Shown piece by piece: positions 26,871 to 31,639 of a stretch of 64,000 nt of DNA (positions within the stretch are counted from its first letter, which is position 1; the number at the start of each line of letters is the position of its first letter). A program made the translations under genes and the position numbers. The stretch covers positions 1,116,001 to 1,180,000 of the forward strand of contig MCFL01000001.1 of NCBI GenBank assembly GCA_002102555.1, in the 5' to 3' direction. The notes beneath the pieces are model-generated. The model saw only the letters and a program-made list of their open reading frames with translations. It had not been told where the DNA came from and searched no databases. This DNA comes from Catenaria anguillulae PL171. Lineage: Eukaryota; Blastocladiomycota; Blastocladiomycetes; Blastocladiales; Catenariaceae.

Positions 26871-28589
26871 TCACCGGTACCTCCTGGGCGGGGGCGTCCT
26901 TGACCGCGACCGTGACCGCGACCTCGAACTCGCATAACTCGAAACGGATCTGTTCCTCCTACCCGCGGGGCCGCCACCATACCTGCGATCCATTGGCCGC
27001 GCAGGCGACCGCGACCGCGATCTGCCCCTCGTCTCTGGGCGCTCGCGATACTCCCTATCCCTGGGCGCGCGGCCGTGATCCCTGCGATACCCATCGCCGC
27101 CTCCACCACGATACATGTCCCTGTGGGGCGGCGGCGGCGGCGGCGACATGAACCGCCCGTGGCCCGCCCTCCCAGGACCCCAGGCGCCTCTCCCACCCAA
27201 TGGTTCTGCGGCACGTCCCAAATCGCCAGGCACGCGAGCCACCAGAGCCAGGTCCACGCGCATCCCATCAATCTCGCCATCTTGCATATGGTCCAAGGCT
27301 TGCTTGGCGTCGTGCTCACTGGCCATGGTCACATATGTCCTAGCGAGCCGCGTGCCGGGCGGGACGTGTTCCTTGACAATTGCACGCACGGATCCAAAAT
27401 AGGTGAAGATGGTGCGCACGTTTGCTTCCGAGACACGCACGGGCACGCGCAGAAACAAGATGCGTTTGGCTGACGATGCGGGCGGGGATGGCGACCGCAT
27501 AGGGCGTGCGCGTGCACCCAAGGCGCGGTACGGCGACCGAGACCGCGACCGCGAGCGAGTACACGAGTCCCTACGGCCACCATGCACAGGCGGCGGCGGC
27601 GGCGGCGGCGATAGTGGCGACCGCGATCTGCGCCGGGCGTATCGGGGACCTGGGCGGCCTCGAGGAGGGCTGCGGCTGCGGCTACGGCTACGTGATTGGC
27701 TACGCGACCATGCACGCCGGCCACGTGCGGTGGCGTACGGCGACCGGCCTCTGCGCGAGCGTGAGCGCGAGCGGGACCGGCTGCGAGATGGAGAGTAGGA
27801 CCGGCCGCGCGGTCTCGTGCCACGAGCAACATGGCGGCGCCGAGACACGGAGCGCGAGCGCGAACGTGAGCGTGAGCGTGAGCGGCTGAATGACGGCGAC
27901 CGCGAGAATTGCCGGAGCGCCGGTGCCCGTGCGGCCGTCGCAGCGGGTGTCGGGACGGGTGCATCGCGACGTGGCGACGGCGTGCGCGAGACGCTGCGCG
28001 AATAATCCGACGGCGTGAGCGAGCGAGAGCGGCGCCGGGCACGGCCACGGGGGATGGGCGACCGAGAACGAGAACGAGAACGAGAACGGGACCGCGACGG
28101 CGAGCGTGAGTACGACCGGTTGCGGGTGCGGGTACGACGCGGAGGCGTGCGCGATGGCGAGCGTGAGAAGGAGCGCGACCGAGAACGGGAACGAGAGCGA
28201 GAGCGGTCCATGGGCGAGCGTGAGCGTGAGCGTGAGCGCGATCGGGATGCAGGCCGGCGGCGTCCGCGGGACCTGGAGCGTGAGCGTGAGCGCGGGGGCG
28301 ACCGCGACCGGGAGAGGGAGCGTAAGCGGGAGCGAGGTGAGCGAGGCCGAGACCGAGACCGAGACCTAGATCTTGCGGGCGAGTCCACGTCCATGGGGTC
28401 CGAAGACGGACCGACGGCAGCGGTCGGGGACTTGGCAGCGGGCTCTTGGACCGAGCCGTCGGATTCGGGGGCGGCAGACGACGAGAGTTTGAGTGCATCG
28501 ACGGCGTGGTCTACAGCCATGTCGCCCGAGCTGGGGCTTGCAGTTTGGCTCGGCCCTTGGCTCGACGAACGAGCGGTGGCCACCATCAT
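26871..28589 (-). CDS. RNPS1: RNPS1-like SR protein
   Basis: 572 aa, single exon, ATG at 28589. Residues about 75-365 are dominated by RS dipeptides. One RRM follows at about 375-450 (RILFLRVPVRVSEANV, GSVRAIVKEHVPPGTR, ARTYVTMASEHDAKQAL), ending HMQDGEIDGMRVDLALV, which resembles the MDGGQIDGQE end of the RNPS1 RRM. A Gly/Arg/RS tail closes the protein. RNPS1 is a peripheral exon-junction-complex factor (ASAP/PSAP) acting in splicing and mRNA decay. The RS part is longer than in human RNPS1 (305 aa in total). The DNA of this part is a run of near-identical hexamers, readable on the plus strand as GAGCGT/GAGCGC units. Divergent from the UbiA-FAD fusion gene. Confidence 0.82.
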   Translation of the reverse strand: MMVATARSSSQGPSQTASPSSGDMAVDHAVDALKLSSSAAPESDGSVQEPAAKSPTAAVGPSSDPMDVDSPARSRSRSRSRPRSPRSRLRSLSRSRSPPRSRSRSRSRGRRRPASRSRSRSRSRSPMDRSRSRSRSRSRSFSRSPSRTPPRRTRTRNRSYSRSPSRSRSRSRSRSRSPIPRGRARRRSRSLTPSDYSRSVSRTPSPRRDAPVPTPAATAARAPALRQFSRSPSFSRSRSRSRSRSRSVSRRRHVARGTRPRGRSYSPSRSRSRSRSRSRRGRSPYATARGRRAWSRSQSRSRSRSRSPPRGRPGPRYARRRSRSPLSPPPPPPPVHGGRRDSCTRSRSRSRSPYRALGARARPMRSPSPPASSAKRILFLRVPVRVSEANVRTIFTYFGSVRAIVKEHVPPGTRLARTYVTMASEHDAKQALDHMQDGEIDGMRVDLALVARVPGDLGRAAEPLGGRGAWGPGRAGHGRFMSPPPPPPHRDMYRGGGGDGYRRDHGRAPRDREYRERPETRGRSRSRSPARPMDRRYGGGPAGRRNRSVSSYASSRSRSRSRSRTPPPRRYR

Positions 28590-28996: not shown

Positions 28997-31639
28997 ATGC
29001 GCACGGCTCCAGCCTCGCCCTTTCAACGCCGACGCCCACGCTCGCCGGGCCCAGCATCATCCTCATCATCACTACGGCCCTCATCACCCGCTCCGTCATC
29101 CCCGATGGGAAAAGCAGTGGCAGCGATCGGGGCTGCCCTTCGGCTCATGCGGCTGCGCATGACCGTCTTCTCGGCCGTCACCTATGCCACCGCCGCTTAC
29201 ATTGGCTTCTCACAGACTGCTCTCGACACGGATACGGACACCGCCAACGCGCCTTGGACAGAAAACGCGGGGCTCGACCTTGGCCTGCTCGTCCTCGGCT
29301 GGATCTTTGTGCTCACGTGCCAGGTCTCGGCCCACTTGCTCGGCGAGTACTACGACTTGCCGTCGGATCGCTACGCCTACCTCGCGTCGCCCTCGCCCTT
29401 CACGGGTGGCTCCCGCGTCCTGGTATCTGCCGCGGCCGACGCTGCCCACAAGGTCACGCCGTTAACCTGTAAACACCTCGGCCAACTGACCACCTTATTG
29501 GCACTTGTCCAAGCGCTTGCAGGCCTCGGATGGCTCGACCTTGCCGGCCGTGAAGCGGTCCTGTTTCCGCTCGCGCTCGCCATGATTGCCCTTGCGCACC
29601 AGTACTCTGCACCGCCGCTCAAACTCAATCACCGTGCTCTTGGCGAACTTGGTGCGGGCGTTGTCATGAACCTTTTGCTGCCCTATTTCGGCGCCATTCT
29701 GCATTTGCCCAACAAGGTCTACCTTACCAACCCCAGTGCGGCCATGGCCAACCTGCACACATCGCTCGCCATGCTCGTCATCCCATCTTTTCTCCTCAAA
29801 ATCGCCCTTTTCATGATCCTCAACTGGGCCGACCGCCGAGCCGACTTTCTTGGCGGCAAAACCACCCTTGCCCTGGTCCTCTCGCCCCATGCCCTTGCAC
29901 ACGCCACCCGTGCATGCATGTACCTCGCCTACTTGTCAGCCATGGCCCTTGCCTACTTTGTCCCCGCGACCATCGCCACGCGCGCCAACCAACTGGGCCT
30001 CGCGTGCCTACTTGCCACCTTGCCACTCGCCCACAAGCTCGCGCGCACGCTGCACCCAAGTTCGCGCTCGCTTGCGCCCTCGGCCGTGTTTCTCGCTCTC
30101 AAGCTCGCACCCCTGCCCGTCCTGGGCCTCTTTTTCGCACACTTACTTGCCGAACTCGCTGCCAGTCCAGCACAAACACTCTGGTCGCCCGCGTTTTATT
30201 TGCGCACGCTTCCCGTGCTGCCATTTGTGAAAAACATGGCGCTCGCTCGTGGTCCGCCATACGTCCAGCCCTTGCCACCTGCGGCAGCCAACGCCGACGC
30301 TACGGACGATCGCGTGGTGATTGTTGGCGGCGGGGTCGCTGGGCTACTGGCCGCGCTCGAGCTCGACATGCGCGGGTCGCCCGTGGTGGTGCTTGAGCGA
30401 CGTGTGGGCGCACAAGTGGCGGATCGCGGTGCGGATTTGGGGTTGTGGCCGACGGCCGTCGACGTGCTCAAGCGATGGATCAAGGAGCCGGCGTGGTGGC
30501 TTGCAAATGCGTATCGGATTGCCAAGGTTGATGTGGTGGCGTTGCCCAAGGGGGTGGACGCTAGGGCGTGGCCGTTGCGCCAAGTCGACATGGAGGAGGT
30601 CACGGACCGTGGTGGGTTTTACCTGGTGGTCAGGCAAGCGCTCATGCAGCGGTTGCGGGAAGAGGTGGAGGCGCGTGGGATTGATGTGCGGTATGGTGCC
30701 AAAGTGGTGCGTGTCACGGAAACGCGCGACCACGCAAGTGTCGAGTACGAGGCAAATGGAATGCGCAACGAGGTGATTGGCAAGCTCGTCATTGGGGCCG
30801 ACGGCGTATCAAGCGTGTGCCGGCGAGCGATTCGCGCCGTGTTGAGCAAAGGCATGGGCGTGGACAATGATGACGACCAAGAGGGCGAGCCGCGGTACGC
30901 GGGCGAAGTGTGTTACCGTGGCGTCATTGACTTGCACCGGTGCCCCAATTCAGGCGAGGTGCGCAAGCTGTTGGATGCCGTTGGCGACAATGTCATGCCG
31001 CTCGTCATGGGTGTCGGAATTCGCGCCAGCTGGTCGTACATCAACGAGGATAGGTCGGTTGCGTGCTGGTGGGTCAAGGAAAAGATGGACCAGCGGCTGC
31101 GCGAGCAAGAAGTGAGCCGCCAGGAGGACGACCCTGGCCAAGACCAATTGGTTGGCGGCTGGGGTGCCGTGCGCAAAGCGTACGACCAAGGCGTCGAATG
31201 GCCCCATGTCTTGCGCACCCTCCAGGACGCCACGCGCACCACCGACCTATACCTGCAAGACATTATCGACCGGTCGCCCAACGGCACACCCTGGTGCACG
31301 CATCGGATCGTGCTTGTAGGTGACGCGGCGCATCCCGTCACGCCCAATATGGGCCAAGGGGCCACCATGGCCATCGAGGACGTGGACTTGCTTGTACGGC
31401 TCATGGATGCAGCTCCGCACCAGGTGGATGCGTTCATCGAGTATGTGCGGTGGCGGCGGCCGCATGCGAGTCAAGTGGCGGGCGAGAGTTACAAGCAGGC
31501 AAAGGCCGGGCAGGTCGTGCATCCTGTTGGTGTCAGGTTGAGGTGGTGGCTGCTGGGCAAGTTGCCGCGGTTTGTGTTTGATGGTCGGTTGAAGTCGGTG
31601 AATATGTTTAAGCAGCCCACGGTGCCAAAGTCTTGGTGA
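28997..31639 (+). CDS. UbiA-family prenyltransferase fused to FAD-dependent monooxygenase
   Basis: One uninterrupted 880-aa frame. Residues 1-50 are rich in Arg, Ser and Pro with no acidic residue, like a mitochondrial presequence. Residues about 50-390 are a polytopic UbiA domain with the two Asp-rich motifs: EYYDLPSD (117-124, where NDxxDxxxD is usual) followed by SPFTGGSRVL, and NWADRRADFLGGKTTLAL (276-293). The GGSR and GK-TL patterns are closest to the MenA-like branch. Residues about 438-830 are a class A flavin monooxygenase: VVIVGGGVAGLLAALEL (FAD, GxGxxG-like), VIGADGVSSVCRR and VLVGDAAHPVTPNMGQGA. Such a protein would prenylate an aromatic acid or naphthoate and then oxidise the ring or the prenyl chain. 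Substrates are unknown. Both active sites look intact. Confidence 0.88.
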   Translation: MRTAPASPFQRRRPRSPGPASSSSSLRPSSPAPSSPMGKAVAAIGAALRLMRLRMTVFSAVTYATAAYIGFSQTALDTDTDTANAPWTENAGLDLGLLVLGWIFVLTCQVSAHLLGEYYDLPSDRYAYLASPSPFTGGSRVLVSAAADAAHKVTPLTCKHLGQLTTLLALVQALAGLGWLDLAGREAVLFPLALAMIALAHQYSAPPLKLNHRALGELGAGVVMNLLLPYFGAILHLPNKVYLTNPSAAMANLHTSLAMLVIPSFLLKIALFMILNWADRRADFLGGKTTLALVLSPHALAHATRACMYLAYLSAMALAYFVPATIATRANQLGLACLLATLPLAHKLARTLHPSSRSLAPSAVFLALKLAPLPVLGLFFAHLLAELAASPAQTLWSPAFYLRTLPVLPFVKNMALARGPPYVQPLPPAAANADATDDRVVIVGGGVAGLLAALELDMRGSPVVVLERRVGAQVADRGADLGLWPTAVDVLKRWIKEPAWWLANAYRIAKVDVVALPKGVDARAWPLRQVDMEEVTDRGGFYLVVRQALMQRLREEVEARGIDVRYGAKVVRVTETRDHASVEYEANGMRNEVIGKLVIGADGVSSVCRRAIRAVLSKGMGVDNDDDQEGEPRYAGEVCYRGVIDLHRCPNSGEVRKLLDAVGDNVMPLVMGVGIRASWSYINEDRSVACWWVKEKMDQRLREQEVSRQEDDPGQDQLVGGWGAVRKAYDQGVEWPHVLRTLQDATRTTDLYLQDIIDRSPNGTPWCTHRIVLVGDAAHPVTPNMGQGATMAIEDVDLLVRLMDAAPHQVDAFIEYVRWRRPHASQVAGESYKQAKAGQVVHPVGVRLRWWLLGKLPRFVFDGRLKSVNMFKQPTVPKSW

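Follow-up and report, generated by a model that had tools for sequence, protein, structure and literature searches.

The 64,000-nucleotide stretch of the Catenaria anguillulae PL171 genome analysed here (contig MCFL01000001.1, positions 1,116,001 to 1,180,000, forward strand; hereafter the window) contains an intronless gene whose single protein chain joins an N-terminal UbiA-type membrane domain to a class A FAD monooxygenase (FMO). The two-domain chain is real, as read from the genomic sequence itself, and database comparison identifies it as a member of a conserved eukaryotic family, not a one-off. There is about an even chance that the two halves act as a relay, in which the membrane domain prenylates a molecule that the flavin domain then oxidises; the reaction, donor, product and step order are what we infer. 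Homogentisate as the acceptor takes about half of that probability.

The fusion gene

The frame at 28997-31639 (+) was open for 880 codons, ended by a stop and free of introns in the window translation. The stop-free run around it measured 896 codons, whereas the longest run was 327 codons when the window was base-shuffled 20 times. The motifs on which the first-pass annotation had based a natural UbiA-FMO fusion were all located in this frame (GEYYDLPSD, NWADRRAD, GGGVAG, GADG and GDAAHP); the first, quoted there as EYYDLPSD, reads GEYYDLPSD in full. The features are as follows.

28997..31639, + strand: fusion open reading frame, 880 residues plus stop, intronless; same frame in the second genomic copy
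28997-29104, + strand: possible 5' leader, upstream of M37
29105..31639, + strand: likely coding sequence from M37, 844 residues; start of database model P0001, with the N termini of several relatives aligning about here
29105..30097, + strand: UbiA-like membrane domain, approximately residues 37-367; sub-threshold Pfam UbiA match at 91-366, PF01040 in relatives, tree
29342..29368, + strand: motif 1, GEYYDLPSD; Gly116 replaces the canonical Asn, Asp120 and Asp124 kept (alignment)
29402..29422, + strand: TGGSRVL loop, common to the bacterial non-MenA UbiA clade (alignment)
29600..29617, + strand: QYSAPP with the conserved Tyr, present in 34/34 eukaryotic rows (alignment)
29798..29800, + strand: Lys268, in 34/34 eukaryotic rows; bacterial rows have Gln (93/133) or Val (14/133)
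29822..29845, + strand: motif 2, NWADRRAD, with Asp279 and Asp283 (alignment)
30098..30301, + strand: end of the membrane domain and variable linker, the linker being 59-135 residues across 31 rows
30302..31636, + strand: class A FMO domain, approximately residues 436-880; Pfam FAD_binding_3 at 6e-22, tree
30326..30343, + strand: GGGVAG, dinucleotide-binding GxGxxG motif; glycines invariant in the 31-row alignment
30794..30805, + strand: GADG, DG motif (31-row alignment)
31319..31336, + strand: GDAAHP, GD motif (31-row alignment)

Database model P0001 of the window protein begins at M37 (29105), and several relatives start with a short stretch just ahead of the first membrane helix, about M37. 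The Hyaloraphidium protein (P0014) had a longer, dissimilar N-terminal extension. The Arg/Ser-rich first 36 residues were not common to the relatives inspected; they probably do not belong to the protein, and the true start would be at 29105. A mitochondrial location had been suggested from this stretch. Because it is unshared and perhaps lies upstream of the real start, that suggestion was dropped and no targeting claim is made from the N terminus. The Plasmodiophora protein is labelled mitochondrial in one database record, yet it lies on a 1.29 Mb contig, and the label was not taken as evidence.

The host genome (41.07 Mb, 457 contigs) carried a second copy of the fusion on contig C445, with 99% protein identity and the same unbroken frame. 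DNA identity between the copies was 97.4% over the gene and its downstream side and 94.4% on the upstream side. The copies differed by 32 synonymous and 12 non-synonymous changes (dN/dS 0.126); taken by half, dN/dS was 0.137 for UbiA and 0.096 for FMO on 44 differences only. Both halves look kept under purifying selection. Several genes in the assembly occurred as near-identical pairs (C1/C445, C57/C204, C75/C57), as with uncollapsed haplotypes or recent duplication. That the fusion is an artefact of assembly or gene model has a negligible probability in view of the raw unbroken frame, the second copy and 29 further homologous two-domain chains.

Distribution and phylogeny of the fusion

Besides the window's own protein, a protein search found 30 relatives (P0002-P0031), with E values below 1e-35. 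Of these 31 top rows, 30 contain FMO sequence together with the second UbiA motif region, which P0030 lacks; three more rows had a cut UbiA start, and P0009 had a cut FMO. The named species were Blastocladiella, Paraphysoderma, Sorochytrium, Hyaloraphidium, Planoprotostelium, Plasmodiophora, Ectocarpus and Gracilariopsis, the nearest being Blastocladiella emersonii (48% identity). Chrysoparadoxa was added by the UbiA search, its 473-residue model still having both Pfam domains. By NCBI lineage, the nine named species belong to Fungi, Amoebozoa, Rhizaria, Stramenopiles and Rhodophyta; they include Blastocladiomycota, Hyaloraphidium, an amoebozoan, Plasmodiophora, two stramenopile algae and a red alga. 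This spread is a lower bound (at least nine named species) and makes no statement on Dikarya, animals or plants. Three protein searches were made, each scoring up to 8000 candidates, and gave 73 rows, the best 120 of 152 and the best 120 of 1229; among the matches listed, PF01040 joined to PF01494 was not found outside the eukaryotic clade. With the continuous raw frame, the second genomic copy and relatives in several eukaryotic supergroups, the fusion stands as a natural one.

The UbiA halves formed one clade in a quick tree (35 rows, support 99), which used 38 of 111 bacterial P rows and left out three distant references, and again in a careful tree of 51 rows (14 rows in the clade, 100/98). 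The FMO halves also formed one clade in a quick tree (47 rows against 35 bacterial-type rows, support 99). The clade included 15 fragments or stand-alone copies and one paralogue from the host's own genome; the Chrysoparadoxa row had too little FMO for this tree. Only three groupings recurred clearly in the trees of both halves, namely one of red-algal type, one of amoeba type and the pairing of the window protein with Blastocladiella; P0004, P0014 and P0031 were placed differently in the two. Because each half forms one eukaryotic clade, the simplest reading is a single ancient fusion that was afterwards inherited, lost in places or transferred among eukaryotes.

The UbiA half lies outside true MenA

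The match of the window protein itself to Pfam UbiA (residues 91-366) scored 18.2 bits (1.6e-3), below the 34.2-bit cut-off. Precomputed annotation placed PF01040 in most of its 30 relatives. We identify this half as a divergent UbiA-type domain because the relatives carry PF01040 and because of the alignment and trees, not because of its own Pfam score. When the UbiA profile was compared with solved structures, UBIAD1 was the sole chain at E up to 1 (E 0.007).

Unfused relatives of the UbiA half were bacterial in type, had a TGGSRVL or SGGSRVL loop and were in many cases annotated as 1,4-dihydroxy-2-naphthoate (DHNA) prenyltransferases. Curated MenA models scored far below cut-off on all seven relatives tested, yet they were the nearest curated profiles for most. 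In the curated-profile scan of the window protein, the best 25 rows were FMO models only. The homogentisate prenyltransferase (HPT) model NF009525 gave 22.3 bits on the eukaryotic-clade relative P0075, against a cut-off of 226. Four genuine MenA proteins from the same bacterial genomes, all over the TIGR00751 cut-off, formed a separate clade in the careful tree (100/100). By this placement the UbiA half lies outside true MenA, in a separate TGGSRVL clade, and MenA identity was rejected on the tree and on the curated scores of the seven relatives. The MenA-like pattern that had been remarked on is thus a real resemblance, but membership in MenA was wrong, a conclusion to which the MenB and MenD scores of the host genome also contribute.

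A menaquinone or ubiquinone enzyme, combining MenA or COQ2 with UbiH or COQ6, would draw on the MenA models as nearest curated profiles for most UbiA relatives tested and on the match of TIGR01988 (UbiH/COQ6) to the FMO half. The latter, however, reached 65.7 bits against a cut-off of 224.65, and the MenA scores were also far under theirs, with MenA itself in a separate clade. The host genome gave 140.7 bits for MenB (cut-off 342.7) and 38.7 for MenD (cut-off 244.2) in a scan that did not search for other menaquinone genes or the futalosine route, and it has a separate COQ2-like gene (L031). We consider such an enzyme very improbable.

A magnesium-binding Asn is replaced in the eukaryotic clade

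The first UbiA motif is NDXXDXXXD, with an Mg-binding Asn. The window protein has GEYYDLPSD at this site and so lacks the Asn, while both later Asp are kept; the Asn-to-Gly change went unremarked in the first-pass annotation. This position was Gly in 34/34 testable eukaryotic rows versus Asn in 133/133 bacterial rows and 4/4 MenA. The second motif (DXXXD) and the conserved Tyr were intact: Asp279, Asp283 and Tyr203 were found in 34/34 eukaryotic rows, and Asp120 and Asp124 likewise. Residues characteristic of the eukaryotic clade were Lys268 (34/34), Thr62 (33/33) and Asn211 (33/34); Gln109 was present in 33/33 eukaryotic rows but also in 75/132 bacterial rows. P0098, P0102, P0025, P0029 and P0030 had been dropped from these counts by a length filter, and P0028, whose start is cut, was left out. 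The 133 bacterial rows are not all independent, and some rows and loci may be the same protein (e.g. the Streptomyces niger row and locus). P0098 and P0102 are short Gly-bearing rows from the bacterial part of the UbiA search list, 45-48% identical to the window protein over one third of it; they may be eukaryotic fragments.

In the part of PMC4106721 available to us, N68, D72, D198 and D202 of AfUbiA are reported to bind Mg, and mutants of the equivalent residues in E. coli MenA to lose all or nearly all function. Mutation of the equivalent Asn in AfUbiA is reported there to alter geranyl pyrophosphate (GPP) binding, and the position lost in the fusion corresponds to Asn102 of UBIAD1.

These data bear on an alternative in which the UbiA domain would no longer be catalytic and would serve as a membrane anchor and lipid pocket, presenting a prenylated quinol to the FMO as sole catalyst. 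The uniform Gly, at a position whose MenA equivalent is reported as essential (PMC4106721, in part), speaks for loss of catalysis, and the eukaryote-only Lys268, Thr62 and Asn211 suggest an altered pocket. However, a pure anchor would have no need of both Asp pairs and the Tyr, all retained in 34/34 rows, and the dN/dS of the UbiA half indicates purifying selection. Conserved residues specific to the clade would be unlikely in a decaying domain; they would fit a changed reaction or a changed metal site. We regard a non-catalytic anchor as rather unlikely.

Most scanned bacterial relatives lie near HPPD genes

No relative was detected when genomes were scanned with the eukaryotic UbiA alignment; scanning GTDB species genomes with the bacterial UbiA alignment gave 22 loci. 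A gene for 4-hydroxyphenylpyruvate dioxygenase (HPPD) adjoined the UbiA gene or lay within ~1.5 kb of it in 15 of these (L008, L011-L020, L022-L024 and L029), a count in which many loci are from related Streptomyces and which has no control frequency. All four intact HPPDs scanned passed the curated cut-off. At a sixteenth locus, from Actinosynnema (L028, 7767-9509), the UbiA frame reads through, with no stop codon, to a broken HPPD copy whose middle part is missing. HPPD was upstream on the same strand in two Bacteroidota, Saccharopolyspora and Streptomyces F-6131, directly downstream in Nocardia and Mycobacteriaceae, and divergent with an O-methyltransferase between in nine mutually related Streptomyces-type loci. 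An O-methyltransferase was near UbiA in 11 of the 22 loci, and a geranylgeranyl (GG)-reductase-type FAD protein in nine; the one such protein scanned passed the GG-reductase subfamily cut-off, and its MenJ match was below cut-off.

The product of HPPD is homogentisate, which we favour as the acceptor of the HPPD-linked bacterial UbiA branch. Carry-over of this acceptor to the eukaryotic branch is weaker, because the careful tree did not resolve which group is sister to the eukaryotic UbiA clade.

The HPPD-UbiA neighbourhood in Streptomyces, other actinobacteria and Bacteroidota looks like that of an unassigned homogentisate-derived prenyl compound. In the portion of the open PubMed Central literature covered, no such compound was found for Streptomyces, Nocardia or Bacteroidota; a search on aurachins, whose enzymes AuaA and AuaG were considered for comparison, gave aurachins only. 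Candidatus Megaera polyxenophila (Rickettsiales) is a symbiont of protists, and a plasmid of this organism (AP017965.1; L083, 9950-11011) carries a UbiA gene of the TGGSRVL-type clade near conjugation genes. It is a possible route between bacteria and eukaryotes. At another locus, a PF01494 FMO frame is convergent to and adjoins a UbiA gene of the clade (L086, 7074-8720 and 8734-9927), and has a distant likeness to the eukaryotic FMO (9.6e-9).

The FMO half

Pfam FAD_binding_3 (PF01494) matched residues 439-614 at 6e-22 with 78.7 bits, over the cut-off of 22, and the GxGxxG, DG and GD motifs were invariant or nearly so in the 31-row alignment. The earlier assignment to class A flavin monooxygenases with a complete motif set was therefore upheld. 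The best solved match of the FMO profile was 6-hydroxynicotinate 3-monooxygenase (2.8e-36), followed by tropone 2-monooxygenase and further flavoprotein monooxygenases; 4-hydroxybenzoate decarboxylase, salicylate hydroxylase and decarboxylative vanillate 1-hydroxylase were also matched. A single-sequence search of the FMO half against solved chains placed the indole enzyme CtdE first instead. Altogether 90 distinct solved chains matched the profile at 1e-10, and because they are of many kinds of aromatic hydroxylase, similarity does not settle the reaction. Our best guess is that the substrate would be a small aromatic acid, which the domain would oxidise on the ring or decarboxylate oxidatively.

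The same matches bear on a variant of the relay in which the acceptor is another ring, e.g. 4-hydroxybenzoate, which the FMO would decarboxylate and hydroxylate to a prenyl hydroquinone. The reactions named among the solved matches agree with this, and VibMO1 is a fungal precedent (as cited in PMC11574748, seen in part). Against it, HPPD lies near most of the scanned bacterial UbiA relatives, in a survey that did not search for 4-hydroxybenzoate genes, and the breadth of the 90 matches leaves the reaction unsettled. We rate this variant as possible but doubtful. In a further variant, the FMO would epoxidise the prenyl chain for later cyclisation, a sequence of steps known from fungal meroterpenoid pathways. 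XimB and XimD form a comparable relay of a UbiA protein and an FAD enzyme, XimD being the proposed epoxidase (PMC4053376, in part); the top solved matches of the FMO half, however, are named as aromatic hydroxylases, and none of the 20 window open reading frames (ORFs) scanned with Pfam matched a terpene-cyclase family. Epoxidation is thus improbable.

The FMOs beside bacterial UbiA at L014 and L024 were rejected as a source of the FMO half: they match the eukaryotic FMO profile (1.6e-21 and 3.4e-18), but a branch of 4.2 sets them outside the eukaryotic clade. Elsewhere in the host genome, the FMO half has relatives that are split over two frames and lack an adjacent UbiA match (L003/L006 on C429 and L004/L007 on C57); the one on C429 ends in a long C-terminal tail, and the FMO tree places it within the fusion clade.

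Host genome and neighbouring genes

HPPD was over its cut-off in the host genome. Other UbiA-superfamily candidates were a heme O synthase (L030), the COQ2-like gene L031, whose exon pieces matched TIGR01474 best but under the cut-off of that profile, and a further UbiA-like gene present as two copies (L033/L034). Neighbours of the fusion in the window encode COG4, coatomer gamma, a transportin-like protein and the small subunit of DNA primase; together with Blastocladiella emersonii as nearest named relative, they are in keeping with a blastocladiomycete host. In a Pfam scan that ignored introns, 7 of 20 neighbouring ORFs had matches. Every match was to an ordinary eukaryotic family, an argument against bacterial contamination; no local biosynthetic gene cluster was seen among these 20 ORFs. 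Upstream of the fusion, at 26871-28589 (-), a very Arg/Ser-rich frame resembles an SR splicing protein and was without a Pfam match at the limit used.

Discussion

In the relay that we propose, a prenyl diphosphate would bind between the two acidic motifs of the N-terminal UbiA-type domain, which would transfer the chain to a small phenolic acceptor, for which homogentisate is favoured. The tethered FMO would then use FAD, NAD(P)H and oxygen to give an oxidised prenylated product; epoxidation of the side chain is less likely here than hydroxylation of the ring or oxidative decarboxylation. The tether may hold the greasy intermediate at the membrane, and coupling of two consecutive steps by the fusion, as first suggested from the window alone, is plausible. 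More tentatively, the family may predate the divergence of several supergroups, or have passed between them, and may make an undescribed prenylated quinol from homogentisate. Its UbiA site would then work without the Asn, replaced in function by other polar residues and by the Lys that only eukaryotes have in the helix preceding motif 2. If this were true, the lipid would be a redox or signalling compound common to early fungi, amoebae and algae.

Several observations weigh against this proposal. The Asn reported as essential in E. coli MenA is replaced in motif 1, and prenyl transfer is not to be assumed. The acceptor may differ in the eukaryotic branch, given the lack of a resolved sister group and the absence of HPPD at 6 of the 22 bacterial loci and at 4/4 further loci, including the Candidatus Megaera plasmid. 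Kinship among the Streptomyces loci reduces what the HPPD linkage can tell. HPPD is common in eukaryotes, and hence its presence in a fungal genome is weak support. The FMOs beside unfused bacterial UbiA at two loci match the eukaryotic FMO profile but fall far outside its clade.

A two-domain enzyme conserved across distant eukaryotes implies a metabolite that the literature searched does not assign to the fusion. The gene offers a direct handle, two chained reactions being encoded in one gene, and Blastocladiella is a culturable host. The natural Gly at the MenA-essential Asn (N102 of UBIAD1) poses a testable question: can a UbiA enzyme work without that Mg ligand? From the bacterial HPPD neighbourhood, in turn, one would expect Streptomyces, Nocardia and Bacteroidota to contain a prenyl compound derived from homogentisate.

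Comparison with known systems

Titles and abstract openings of open PubMed Central papers yielded no prior description of such a UbiA-FMO fusion, in line with the first-pass remark that no standard fungal quinone enzyme has this plan. In xiamenmycin biosynthesis of Streptomyces, the UbiA geranyltransferase XimB acts before the FAD enzyme XimD (PMC4053376, in part). As in our proposal, the product of a UbiA-type prenyltransferase is next processed by an FAD enzyme; XimB and XimD differ in being two proteins, in using 4-hydroxybenzoate as the acceptor and in the proposed epoxidation by XimD. VibMO1 of Boreostereum vibrans, which performs oxidative decarboxylation of prenyl 4-hydroxybenzoate (cited in PMC11574748, seen in part), is likewise an FAD monooxygenase acting on a prenylated hydroxybenzoate, but it is a separate protein from a basidiomycete. 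Both systems were likened to the fusion by description, not by sequence. EboC was set apart in the same way, since the available description gives it a UbiA cluster of its own.

Of the solved enzymes, 6-hydroxynicotinate 3-monooxygenase and the salicylate hydroxylase group are among the best matches of the FMO half; they are stand-alone chains of 400-470 residues without a UbiA part. MenA and UBIAD1 belong to the same superfamily as the UbiA half, but MenA is set apart in the tree (100/100), and UBIAD1 has, as Asn102, the residue lost in the fusion (PMC4106721, in part). The bacterial TGGSRVL prenyltransferases near HPPD (Flexithrix, Nocardia, Saccharopolyspora and Streptomyces) are stand-alone relatives of the UbiA half in the same non-MenA clade; they differ in keeping the canonical Asn, in being unfused and in often having an O-methyltransferase nearby. 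P0154, P0168 and other rows of ~500 residues carry a PF02525/PF03358 reductase fused to a UbiA domain of a neighbouring clade. These bacterial fusions with a flavodoxin-fold NAD(P)H quinone reductase resemble the Catenaria protein in attaching a flavoenzyme to a related UbiA domain, but the partner is a reductase rather than a monooxygenase, it lies at the opposite end of the chain, and the UbiA domain has the canonical Asn and belongs to a separate clade.

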